DNA of 64,000 nt from Planctomycetota bacterium (GTDB taxonomy: Bacteria; Planctomycetota; Phycisphaerae; Phycisphaerales; UBA1924), in contig JANRJM010000013.1 in assembly GCA_033763975.1 (NCBI GenBank), positions 1-64,000 on the forward strand, read 5' to 3'. Position numbers and translations under genes: made by a program. The notes under the pieces were generated by a model, which saw only the letters and a program-made list of their open reading frames with translations, was not told the origin of the DNA and made no database searches. Positions 37,376 through 42,112 of the stretch are shown in pieces (position 1 is the first letter of the stretch; every line of letters begins with the position of its first letter).

Positions 37376-38329
37376 CTACTGGGGCAGGTCGGCCTGACCC
37401 GGGGCGAGGCCGAGTTCGCCCATGACCAGGCGCAGATCGCCCCACACCTGCCCGCGGGTCTCCGGGGTGTAGTTGCGGAGCACGTACGCCGGGTGGAACG
37501 TCGGCATCAGACGCACCTGCCGCCCGTCCTCCAGCGCGTACGTCCGCCACTTGCCCCGCATCCGGGTCATGGACTCGTCGGACCGCAGCAGCGCCCGGGC
37601 GGCGGGCAAACCCAGCGTCACGATCACCTCCGGCGAAATGATCGAGAGCTGCGCGCGCAGGAATGGCTCGCACAGCTCGATCTCGCGTCCGGTGGGCGTG
37701 GCGTTGTTCGGCGGGCGGGTCTTCAGGACGTTGCAGATGTAGACCTCGTCGCGCGAGAGCCCCATCGCGGTGATCATCTTCGTGAGCAACTGCCCGGAAC
37801 GCCCCACGAACGGCACGCCCTGGCGGTCCTCATCCTCGCCCGGCGCTTCGCCCACGAACACGAGCCTCGCACACGGGTCGCCGTCGCCCCACACGATTCT
37901 CGTGTGCGCGGTGACGAAGTACCGGTGGGGCGCCTCACGCTCGTAACGCTCGCGCAGGTCGTTCATCGCGCGGACGACGCCCGCGCGATCGCGTACGCCC
38001 GCGCGAGCGGGCACTTCGTTCGCAGGTTCGGGCGCCGCGGCGGGGGCTTCCGGCATGCGCGGCGGGGGCTCGGCGGGGCGAGGGGCCCGCGAAACAGCAG
38101 GCGCCGGGCTCGGCACGGCCGCCGGGCCCGGGGGAGCCGCCGGGTTTGCAACCATCGCCGGGCGCGGAACAGGCGTGGGCTCGCCCCGCGGGGCGGGCGC
38201 CAGGGGCGACCCCGCCGGGCGTGCGTACGCGGGAAGGAAGTCCACGCCGCTCGCGAGCGATGCCTCGGCGTGCAAGCGCACGAGACGAGCGAGGTCGGGC
38301 GTCGGCGGGTTGGACGCTGCGCCGGTCAC
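37376..38329 (-). CDS. Family-4-like uracil-DNA glycosylase lacking most Fe-S cysteines
   Basis: 317 residues from GTG 38329 (GTGA overlap with the upstream gene). After a ~95-residue Pro/Ala-rich N-terminal extension, the catalytic domain has motif A VFVGEAPGEDEDRQGVPFVG, SGQLLTKMI, and motif B FHPAYVLRN. It would remove uracil from DNA. Family 4 enzymes bind a 4Fe-4S cluster through four Cys: an early CxxC, one in KCRPP and one about 15 residues later. Here the early pair is missing (YFVTAHTRIVWGD), KCRPP reads KTRPP, and only ELCEPF keeps its Cys. Cluster binding in the usual way is therefore unlikely. Confidence 0.88.
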   Translation of the reverse strand: MTGAASNPPTPDLARLVRLHAEASLASGVDFLPAYARPAGSPLAPAPRGEPTPVPRPAMVANPAAPPGPAAVPSPAPAVSRAPRPAEPPPRMPEAPAAAPEPANEVPARAGVRDRAGVVRAMNDLRERYEREAPHRYFVTAHTRIVWGDGDPCARLVFVGEAPGEDEDRQGVPFVGRSGQLLTKMITAMGLSRDEVYICNVLKTRPPNNATPTGREIELCEPFLRAQLSIISPEVIVTLGLPAARALLRSDESMTRMRGKWRTYALEDGRQVRLMPTFHPAYVLRNYTPETRGQVWGDLRLVMGELGLAPGQADLPQ

Positions 38330-38691
38330 TGCGGCGTCGTAGGCGTGGGAGGCGTCGTGGGCGCGGAAGGCGGCGTGCCGCCGGGCGCGGGCTCGCCGGG
38401 CGCGGGCTCGGTGGGGGCGGGTTCGCCGGGCGCCGGGGTCTGCGGAGCGGGCTCGGCCGCGCCGGGCTCGGTGCCGCCCTGAGGAACGGGCGGAATGGCC
38501 GAGGGCGGGGGATCGCGCATCGGGTCGGTGTTGGCCTTGGCGGTGGCGGGCTGGGTGTCGAAGTCGGCCCCGCGTCCCTCGAACAGCCCGCTGAGGTAGG
38601 CCCCGGCCAGCAGCCCGACCGCGAGCCCGAGCACCAGCCCGGGCACGAACGCCTTGACGAACGAGGGGGATGTTCCGGTGGCAGAGGTCAT
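38326..38691 (-). CDS. Small single-span membrane protein with Pro-rich tail
   Basis: 121 residues. One membrane helix (about 11-35: FVKAFVPGLVLGLAVGLLAGAYL), then a periplasmic tail with repeated GEPAPTEPAPGEPAPG. No family is recognised. It overlaps the uracil-DNA glycosylase start by 4 nt, so the two are coupled. Confidence 0.6.
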   Translation of the reverse strand: MTSATGTSPSFVKAFVPGLVLGLAVGLLAGAYLSGLFEGRGADFDTQPATAKANTDPMRDPPPSAIPPVPQGGTEPGAAEPAPQTPAPGEPAPTEPAPGEPAPGGTPPSAPTTPPTPTTPQ

Positions 38692-40101: not shown

Positions 40102-41754
40102 TCAGCGGGGCTGGTTCTCGCCCTGGGGCGCGCGGGGCTGGCCGGGCGCCGGGATGAACACGGTGATCTCGTCGTCGCGGACCGGGAGGCGCAGCTCGGC
40201 GCAGGTGGTCTCGGAGATGACGAGGAACTCACCGTCGCGGGTGGTCCGGACGGTGATGGTGCCCGCGCGCTTCTCGCCGCGGGGGATGCGGTCGGCGATG
40301 CGCCAGGTGAACTTGGTGCCGGCGCGCTGCGGCTGGCCGAGCGTGGAGGAGACGAACTCCATCCCCTCGGGCAGGACGATGCTGACCTGCACGTTCGTCA
40401 GGTCGACCTGGCCCTGGTTCGTGACCTCGTAGCGGTAGGCCTGGTTGGTGCCGACGGTGACCACGCCCTCGCTGTCGTCCAGCAGGGTGGCCATGTCGGG
40501 CGTGCCACGGACGCCCGTGGTGCACGAATCAGTGACCGCGTTCGCGCAGGTGCACGTCGCGGTCGCGGAGGCGGTCATGGTGCCCGCGCCGCCGGCCGAA
40601 ACGGTCATGTTGAGCGTGCGGCTGGCGTTGGCGTTCAGGGTCGCCAGGTTCCACACGACGTTCGAGCCCTGCAGCGTGCCGCCGTTGTCGGCGCTCACGA
40701 ACGTCGCGCCCTGCGGCAGCGGCGCGGTCACCACCGTCGCGTTGCAGTTGCCGTCACCCTTGTTCGAGACGGTGAACCGGAACGTCGCCTGCCGACCGAT
40801 GAGGATCGCCTCGGGGCACTCGGCCTTGATGGCCAGCTCGGGCTGGCGCACCACCGTCGTCGTCTGGTTCGAGTTGGCCGTGAGGTTGCCCTCGGCGACG
40901 GCACGCCCGGTGTTCTGGAACGAGCCCTTGCGGGTCGCCTTGGCGTTGAACGTGAACTCACGCGACTGGCCCGCGTTCAGCGTGCCCGCGTCGAACTCGA
41001 CGCTCGAGCGCCCGTCGGCGGTGGTGAGGCCCACCGGGAGCGGGTCGGTCACCTTCACGTTGCGCGCGACGCCCGTGCCCGTGTTCGTCACGACGAGCTT
41101 GACCGGGATCGGGTCGCACATCATCACCTCGGCCGGGACGGTCTTCGTGAGCGCCAGCGAGGGCTTCACGACCGGGATCGTCATGCACGCGGGGATGGTG
41201 TAGCTGAGCGTGGCGCACGACTGCACGGTGCCGACGTTGCCCGCCGCGCCGTTCACGCGGATGGTCTTGGTCTCGCCGGGGGTCATGCGCCCCAGGTCGA
41301 ACGCCCACGCCCGCCCGCCGTCGGCCGACGCGCCCTGCGGCGTGGTCGAGGCGACGGTGAACCCGCTGGGCATCGACTCGACGACCGTCACGTCCTCGAG
41401 CGTGCTGGGCGAGACGTTCGTCACCTTGATGAGGTACTCGAAGGGTGCGCCCGCGATGACTTCGCTGGGGTACGAGCGATCAAGGAACAGGGCGGCGTTG
41501 TTCTGCACGCCGGACGGGTAGTACACCCCGGAGCCGGACGAGGCGACCGGCGTCGTCCGCGCCACCTCGGTGGTGCGGGCGGGCTGCGCGGCCGTCGTCG
41601 ACTCGGGCCCGCGCGGGGCGTGCGTGCGCGTCGGCTCGCCGGGGCCGCGGACGGTGCCGTCGTACGGATACCCGCGATCGCCGGTCCGCTGCTGGCTGCA
41701 CCCGATGACGCCGGCCAGCAGAGCCATGACGCCAACACCGATCAAGGACTTCAT
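40102..41754 (-). CDS. DUF11 repeat lipoprotein
   Basis: 550 residues from ATG 41754 (GTG 41760, nearer to AGGAGG, is possible). A lipoprotein signal ends VIGC (Cys19). A Thr/Ala/Arg-rich linker is followed by four to five ~110-residue DUF11 (OmcB-like) repeats with hallmarks YLIKVTNVSPSTLEDVTVVE, VVTNTGTGVARNVKVTDPLP, FRFTVSNKGDGN and YRYEVTNQGQVDLTNVQVSIVLPEG. Paired cysteines (CATLSYTIPAC, CTCANAVTDSC) suggest disulfides. Such proteins are envelope or cell-surface structural candidates in bacteria with unusual walls. It is preceded by a good promoter and a ~175-nt leader. Confidence 0.85.
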   Translation of the reverse strand: MKSLIGVGVMALLAGVIGCSQQRTGDRGYPYDGTVRGPGEPTRTHAPRGPESTTAAQPARTTEVARTTPVASSGSGVYYPSGVQNNAALFLDRSYPSEVIAGAPFEYLIKVTNVSPSTLEDVTVVESMPSGFTVASTTPQGASADGGRAWAFDLGRMTPGETKTIRVNGAAGNVGTVQSCATLSYTIPACMTIPVVKPSLALTKTVPAEVMMCDPIPVKLVVTNTGTGVARNVKVTDPLPVGLTTADGRSSVEFDAGTLNAGQSREFTFNAKATRKGSFQNTGRAVAEGNLTANSNQTTTVVRQPELAIKAECPEAILIGRQATFRFTVSNKGDGNCNATVVTAPLPQGATFVSADNGGTLQGSNVVWNLATLNANASRTLNMTVSAGGAGTMTASATATCTCANAVTDSCTTGVRGTPDMATLLDDSEGVVTVGTNQAYRYEVTNQGQVDLTNVQVSIVLPEGMEFVSSTLGQPQRAGTKFTWRIADRIPRGEKRAGTITVRTTRDGEFLVISETTCAELRLPVRDDEITVFIPAPGQPRAPQGENQPR

Positions 41755-42112
41755 GTTCACAACTGCCTCCTCATCACTACTGCACCCGGGCGGTTGAACT
41801 CGGGCGCAACCTCGCAGCCCGGCCAAACCGGGACTCATGCTCCCGGCGACAGCCGGGCCCCGATCACTACCCCTCCGTTCGGTCACCCCTGCGAGCCGGA
41901 CAGGCTTCGCAAAACACCACGCTGTGGGTTGCGGAGGATTCTCTGTCGCATGTGTGGGGTTGTCAATGAGTTCGAGCATGACGGCATCCTGCGAGCGTGC
42001 CAGTCGTGCGGGTACTTCTCGCGCTCGCGGATGAACACCGCATGAACTGCGCGTTGCTTGTGCGACGCTTTTCGGAACCCCGATGAGATCGCGGGGTCAC
42101 ACCGGAACAGAT
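41755..42112. other. Divergent intergenic region with long leader, 358 bp
   Basis: It holds the minus-strand promoter at 41938-41966. The downstream ~175-nt untranslated leader of the DUF11 gene can form several GC hairpins (cccggctgtcgccggg at 41851-41866 and cccggtttggccggg at 41831-41845). It repeats gtagtgat near its middle and again beside the ribosome site. No protein gene is convincing in this gap. A structured regulatory leader is possible but matches no riboswitch I can name. Confidence 0.45.
41938..41966 (-). promoter_or_regulatory. sigma70-like promoter of the DUF11 lipoprotein gene
   Basis: Minus strand: TTGACA (41961-41966), 17-bp spacer, GAGAAT (41938-41943). It is the best consensus match seen in the window. 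Transcription would begin near 41930, giving a 5' leader of about 175 nt. Confidence 0.6.

Follow-up and report, generated by a model that had tools for sequence, protein, structure and literature searches.

The closest described relatives of the protein analysed here are the family 4 uracil-DNA glycosylases (UDGa), which are represented by structures from Thermus thermophilus (1ui0/1ui1), Thermotoga maritima (TM0511, 1vk2/1l9g) and Sulfolobus tokodaii (4zbx). As far as the available part of PMC10359453 describes them, the enzymes of family 4 carry a [4Fe-4S] cluster and have the motifs GE(A/G)PG and HPAAVL, and those of family 5 (UdgB) have GLAPA and HPSPLN. The active site of Thermus UDGa is listed as E41, G42, E47, F54, N80, N89 and H155 (PMC5387724, in part). 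A further group, UdgX (Mycobacterium smegmatis 6ail and others), has a family-4-like fold, GEQPG as motif A and a KRRIH loop. The 'clusterless' MutY is likewise a DNA glycosylase that has lost its [4Fe-4S] ligands, although it belongs to the HhH superfamily (PMC11078426, in part).

The role of the [4Fe-4S] cluster in DNA glycosylases is disputed, and it has been seen as a structural brace, as a DNA-binding loop and as a redox sensor for finding damage; the arguments for the redox role are summarised in PMC9266487 (in part). In the literature that we searched, which gave partial coverage, neither a family-4 UDG without the cluster cysteines nor a His ligand in the UDG superfamily was described, nor was a statement on the cluster ligands of UdgX found. 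Since coverage was partial, we do not claim priority.

Family assignment and active site

In the window (the whole stretch of 64,000 nucleotides that was analysed) the following features were identified:

37376-38329, minus strand: coding sequence of 317 amino acids with a GTG start, predicted to be a cluster-free family-4-type uracil-DNA glycosylase (TIGR00758, PF03167)
37430-37888, minus strand: catalytic domain of the glycosylase, residues 148-300 (PF03167 match)
37472-37495, minus strand: motif B, HPAYVLRN, in which H279 matches Thermus H155 (PMC5387724, in part)
37670-37672, minus strand: C220, corresponding to Cys4, the sole cluster cysteine left
37703-37732, minus strand: N200 to N209, including KTRPP, from the uracil-binding Asn (N80) to the motif-3 Asn (N89), with T204 at Cys3
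37838-37852, minus strand: motif A, GEAPG, residues 160-164, in which E161 and A162 match Thermus E41 and G42 (roles from PMC5387724, in part)
37922-37933, minus strand: A133-P-H-R136, the former CxxC site (Cys1 and Cys2)
37943-37945, minus strand: Y129, at the position four residues before Cys1, which is His in 3-Cys relatives
38326-38691, minus strand: low-complexity ORF of 121 amino acids upstream of the glycosylase, whose stop overlaps the glycosylase start (GTGA)

The glycosylase reached 185.4 bits with the NCBIfam profile TIGR00758 (cut-off 125.3) and 127.5 bits with the Pfam UDG profile (PF03167), and with 112.7 bits it fell below the cut-off of the UdgX profile TIGR03914 (189.95). Its nearest solved relatives are the Thermus 1ui0, Thermotoga 1l9g/1vk2 and Sulfolobus 4zbx proteins, and it shares with the family-4 structures the motifs, the active site and the fold (Z 26.9-28.6, 38-41% identity). 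Unlike them it has no CxxC and no third Cys, and it carries a long Pro/Ala-rich N-terminal stretch.

The sequence-only reading had described motifs A and B as intact, and this is what we find, as GEAPG (160-164) and HPAYVL (279-284, of the HPAxxL type) both agree with the family-4 motifs; the nuance concerns motif 3, which reads NNATP in the window protein whereas canonical members mostly have xNRxP, the catalytic Asn (N209) being kept. All seven positions of the Thermus active site have their counterparts (E161, A162, E167, F174, N200, N209 and H279), the Ala found at the position of Thermus G42 being allowed by the family motif. The protein does not have the features of UdgX, carrying GEAPG instead of GEQPG and KTRPPNNATP without insertion instead of the KRRIH loop, and the family 5 motifs are absent from it, GEAPG and HPAYVLRN standing in their place.

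In the AlphaFold model the core of the window protein (residues 110-317) has a pLDDT of 96.0 and a pTM of 0.92, with blocks of 97-98 in the former cluster region; AlphaFold works without metals, and its alignment included cluster-bearing relatives. With VIA-align the model matched 1vk2 with a Z of 28.6 (rmsd 1.8 over 189 residues) and 1ui1 with a Z of 27.6, and the UdgX structures with a Z of about 23-25.

The window protein contains only three cysteines, C153, C199 and C220. The sites of Cys1, Cys2 and Cys3 are occupied by A133, R136 and T204, and only Cys4, in ELCEPF, remains as C220. This bears out the earlier description of a family-4-like UDG lacking three of its four Fe-S cysteines, in which the early CxxC is gone, KCRPP has become KTRPP and only the Cys of ELCEPF is left. 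Because only one of the four cysteine ligands is present, we file the protein as a putative cluster-free variant derived from family 4 and not as a canonical member.

That the window protein comes from a UDG family in which no cluster was ever present, an alternative which the sequence-only reading had itself raised, is hardly credible. Other structures of the UDG superfamily do share the fold (BdiUng, 5gn2, Z 15.6), but the TIGR00758 score lies far above the cut-off, Foldseek and VIA rank the family-4 structures first for the window model, and four-Cys sequences surround the protein on the tree, which argues for a loss. Profile, fold and tree thus put it inside family 4 and, judged from its sequence, the window protein is a UDG that has lost its cluster and whose active site is complete.

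Two trivial explanations were discarded. A missed upstream exon or start bearing the CxxC does not fit a protein with no cysteine before residue 153; moreover, the alignments with several homologues start at residue 8-12, and the GTG codon shares bases with the stop of the ORF upstream, so that no N-terminal piece seems to be hidden. A sequencing or assembly error is discounted by the C4-only state of all six other genomes of the same genus and by the absence of the CxxC throughout most of the family (see below).

The ORF upstream of the glycosylase (38326-38691) encodes a small Pro/Glu/Ala-rich repeat protein (APTEPAPGEPAPG...), for which a Pfam search gave no match. At positions 40105-41979 of the window there is a large DUF11-repeat surface-type protein, which also matches a Chlamydia cysteine-rich outer membrane protein.

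Cysteine states among the relatives

The UDG was extracted from 307 loci and then from 40 more, 17 named loci were added, and 346 rows were aligned after removal of duplicates and of UdgX-type rows (four in f1, and G385), which were all dropped before the trees. The row codes f1-f6 and f104 are GTDB families, f1 being that of the window, and the cysteine state is written as C1 C2 C3 C4 with x for a lost one. G571, G590 and G622, three rows that lack motif A, were left out of the 303- and 107-row trees and restored in the 346-row alignment. In f1, 153 genomes had a match and 150 rows were obtained, G475 being identical to G476 and G451 and G533 giving weak or split matches.

Among these 150 rows of f1, 104 keep C4 only, 31 have no cluster Cys, two keep C1+C4, 12 keep C1+C2+C4 and one (G014) has all four, so the CxxC pair is absent in 137 of the aligned rows. 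The 43 rows of f2 comprise 33 with C1+C2+C4, three with four Cys and seven with other losses, and the C1+C2+C4 state is found in the only row of f3 and in 6/6 of f4. In f5 (nine rows) three are four-Cys and six have lost the CxxC; in f6 (38 rows) 30 are four-Cys, seven have none and one has C1+C2+C4. Family f104, from another order of the class, has no cluster Cys in 11/11 rows, and its K-RPP loop carries an insertion. Elsewhere in the class 40 of 42 rows are four-Cys, many of these loci being top-scoring hits. The suggestion of a cluster-free branch, made from the window protein alone, is therefore supported, in that the state spans f1 and appears to have been reached stepwise. The named loci that come closest belong to MAGs with the titles Phycisphaerae, Phycisphaerales or Planctomycetota.

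Of the 17 named outgroup loci, 13 are four-Cys and four proteobacterial ones lack C1 and C3; two of the 17, L325 and L327, are from Planctomycetota. The 29 loci sampled elsewhere in the phylum are all four-Cys, but they, like many loci of the class and the order, are best-scoring hits and for that reason lean to four Cys; the remaining loci were hand-picked from the listed hits. To offset this bias an even draw of 119 genomes was run, with the start of the match as a proxy for the CxxC that is silent on C3. Of 112 genomes outside the class 99 had a match, and in 99/99 the best match started within profile positions 1-4. The proxy is based on f1, in which the 13 listed matches starting at position 1 correspond to the 12 CCxC rows plus the single CCCC row. 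The 80 named loci that were scored, some of them from the same genomes as G-coded rows, comprise 50 four-Cys, 11 C1+C2+C4, nine C4-only and ten other sequences.

The four proteobacterial sequences, L365, L366 and L371 (titled Alphaproteobacteria) and L344 (uncultured proteobacterium), resemble the window protein in the absence of Cys1 and Cys3 (FxGC ... LPWRPP). They differ from it in forming a separate clade on a long branch, in having Trp at the third position and in keeping C2 and C4, and apparently represent a separate loss of cluster ligands. Counted by sequence, at least two ligands are absent in 137/150 f1 rows, in 11/11 rows of f104 and in these four sequences.

Trees were built with FastTree on 157 columns (303 and 346 rows) and with IQ-TREE in quick mode on 155 columns (107 rows), the N-terminus and the C3/C4 columns being excluded in all cases. 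In these trees f1 is one side of a branch with supports of 79 and 84 (FastTree) and 69 (IQ-TREE), and the corresponding branches have supports of 94-97 for f2, 97-99 for f5 and 97-98 for f104. As each of these families is one side of a branch, the gene follows the genomes at family level. Parsimony called for 9-13 changes in each of C1, C2 and C3 and for 13-18 in C4. Since losers of the CxxC are found in f1, f2, f5, f6 and f104 and keepers also in f1, f2, f5 and f6, the pair was lost several times.

Some further observations were made on these sequences. In f104 (L289-L296, L298, L451 and L452) the insertion has roughly 10-15 residues between K and RPP, and the N89 column is Asp in 11/11, perhaps because the insertion disturbs the alignment. 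UdgX-type paralogues (L255-L258) occur in a few f1 genomes, namely G015 (two copies), G042 and G074, with the loops KRRIH (two), ERRIH and LRRIH. The UDG of L332, titled Comamonas sp., resembles those of Myxococcaceae (L333, L336), and the organism label may be wrong.

The histidine before Cys1

A scan of every alignment column for Cys and His by cysteine state revealed the arrangement H-x3-C-x2-C. Counted over rows among which sisters are not independent, His stands four residues before Cys1 in 53 of 54 CCxC rows (f1 12/12, f2 33/33, f3/f4 7/7, f6 1/1; the exception is G097) and in 7/119 four-Cys rows, in which the usual residue is Glu (74) or Gln (19). Similarly, among the 80 named loci it is found in ten of the 11 C1+C2+C4 rows (all but that of the bradymonad L383) and in one of the 50 four-Cys rows. 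Among the 137 f1 rows that lack the CxxC pair this position is occupied by Tyr in 135; the His is still there in two f1 rows devoid of cluster cysteines and is missing from 7/7 f2 rows that lost the pair.

On the tree, Cys3 differs in four supported independent pairs, with the His opposite in about one and unchanged in about three. The loss of the CxxC pair gave three supported independent pairs, and the His follows in about 2.7 of them. The AlphaFold model of the 3-Cys protein L320 (mean pLDDT 96.5, blocks of 97 and 92 around the His) places the His (residue 10) in a helix ending just before C1 (residue 14). A spacing of i,i+4 is common in helical metal sites.

These data suggest to us that an exchange of ligands, His for Cys3, preceded the full loss of the cluster, a view drawn from few independent events and with G097 and L383 as exceptions. 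A possible 3Cys:1His intermediate would be the newest element of the present analysis. There is, however, a somewhat less than even chance that the His is a lineage signature that was never a ligand, the 3-Cys proteins then holding a [3Fe-4S] cluster, a labile one or none at all. Such a signature would agree with the small number of independent His/Cys3 exchanges, with the rows in which the His lies beside four Cys and with the loss of Cys3 without His in G097 and L383. It agrees less well with the near-constant His of the CCxC rows, which include G559 of f6, a sequence that groups with f5 and not with f1-f4, with the disappearance of the His together with the CxxC in f1, in f2 and in the independent pairs, and with its place at i,i+4 from Cys1 at the helix end in the L320 model.

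The four-Cys rows G014, G568, G582 and G622, which carry the His, sit in f1 and f2, families that are mostly 3-Cys or cluster-free, which implies that Cys3 was regained or lost more than once. The UDG of G014 (L025), the sole four-Cys one of f1, groups with 3-Cys rows and keeps the His, and its genome has SUF genes. In this genome Cys3 may have been regained.

Repacking, activity and the other Fe-S proteins of the cell

The residues around the former cluster site, Y129 among them, have changed in concert. The equivalent of F138 is Phe in 103/104 C4-only rows and 17/31 no-Cys rows of f1, and Leu in 106/119 four-Cys rows. Positions 204 and 220 are Thr and Cys in 102 of the 137 f1 rows without the CxxC and Val and Ser in 19; it looks as though one cavity had been filled in two ways. 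The side-chain packing proposed here is read from the sequences.

It is improbable that a metal (zinc or a smaller Fe-S cluster) is still bound, with residues such as H135, H142, C153, C199 and C220 as ligands. In the f1 rows without the CxxC, H135 is found in 129/137 and C220 in 106/137, but H142, C153 and C199 vary (73, 55 and 44 of 137), and H135 persists in 22/22 f1 rows whose C4 is Ser. With at most two positions widely shared, which are too few, a conserved site of other ligands is unlikely; H279 is catalytic and hence no spare candidate. The sequence-only reading had asked whether other Cys or His residues fill the site. For the cluster-free rows of f1 its claim holds, no replacement set being conserved in them, and the objection may apply only to the His of the 3-Cys relatives.

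We also consider it quite unlikely, even more so than a remaining metal site, that the UDG is decaying or repurposed and without glycosylase activity. Three of the four family-defining cysteines are gone, and some f2 and f6 relatives have an altered motif A. The seven active-site positions are, however, conserved across the 137 f1 rows without the CxxC, the equivalent of H155 being present in 134 and gapped in three. The gene is also the only one with PF03167 found by a genome-wide profile search of its own genome (3.27 Mb, completeness 96.95). In 16 same-genus pairs, which were chosen afterwards by genus code, dN/dS (Nei-Gojobori) was 0.04-0.39, indicating purifying selection in the relatives; the top value, 0.39, is that of the window against G001, with synonymous sites near saturation. 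An estimate over all greedy pairs (median 0.38 in 61 cluster-free pairs, maximum 0.77) was dropped, since distant GC-rich pairs give a falsely low dS and make it unreliable. In two archaeal family-4 UDGs, replacing Cys by Ser lowered the activity by only about 40% (PMC5295032, in part).

The altered motif A was observed in the f2/f6 copies L277, L286, L287, L418 and L426 (GDGPS, GDSPN, GEVPT, GDAPT and GESPN), which are perhaps decaying or in another role.

Taking the data jointly, we regard it as quite probable that the window gene encodes a working family-4-type UDG without a [4Fe-4S] cluster and that the cluster was dismantled in order. Such an enzyme would follow the family-4 mechanism, flipping uracil out of the DNA and cutting the glycosidic bond, with H279 stabilising the leaving uracil and N209 positioning the water. 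Y129, F138 and T204 against C220 would have been repacked to hold the former cluster site at the end of a continuous helix. In the order proposed, a His would first be gained four residues before Cys1. Cys3 would then be lost with the His in its place, giving three Cys and a His, and Cys1, Cys2 and the His would later go together and leave Cys4 as a remnant, which in a further subset would change to Ser or an acidic residue.

In the own genome the MutY (L415) and a second HhH protein (L417) both carry the canonical C-x6-C-x2-C-x5-C. An earlier idea that MutY had lost its cluster, drawn from a missing PF10576 match in this genome, was wrong, as L415 is canonical; 150 of 200 candidates were scored. 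The window's genome thus differs from the case of the 'clusterless' MutY in keeping a MutY with the canonical motif. IscU is present, and a profile search for SufB/D in this genome gave no match. As the MutY motif is kept and IscU is present, clusters are very likely still made in this cell, and the loss seems to be confined to the UDG.

More widely, we propose, with some hesitation and at somewhat less than even confidence, that one class preserves the whole path from four Cys, through four Cys with a spare His and a 3Cys:1His cluster, to the cluster-free state. This path would have been run several times, wholly or partly, with the MutY motif kept. If this is true, these uracil glycosylases would use the cluster as a brace that can be replaced, and would not need it as a redox sensor. 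Since the active site is the same in close relatives whatever their number of usable Cys (four, three or none), these can be compared for activity, stability and lesion search, and natural enzymes, not damaged mutants, become available as material for testing the purpose of the cluster. The annotation 'family 4 UDG' does not in itself imply a cluster.

Among the genomes of the order SUF was found in 42/151, and IscU in 22/25 (the own genome and 24 relatives); the ISC- and SUF-type assembly systems (IscU, SufB/D) seem to replace each other. The 151 genomes were taken as one earlier draw of the order, all 42 positives being in the draw and 89 negatives unlisted. A loss of SUF as the cause of the loss of the cluster was considered and dropped. 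Outside f1 the CxxC is lost in 14/29 SUF genomes against 6/68 non-SUF genomes, but f1 reverses this trend (5/8 against 34/37), nine of the 151 genomes being uncounted as they have no UDG row (including G475, identical to G476). On the tree, five supported independent pairs gave 2.0 for, 0.6 against and 2.4 neutral, which is not significant.

The usual spacing in endonuclease III is C-x6-C-x2-C-x5-C. The Nth of the own genome (L399) has four or more cysteines with altered spacing. Across the ten genomes covered, this one included (L397-L406), Nth has four or more Cys, roughly as C-x5to9-C-x5-C-x3to6-C, which suggests a rearranged cluster loop.
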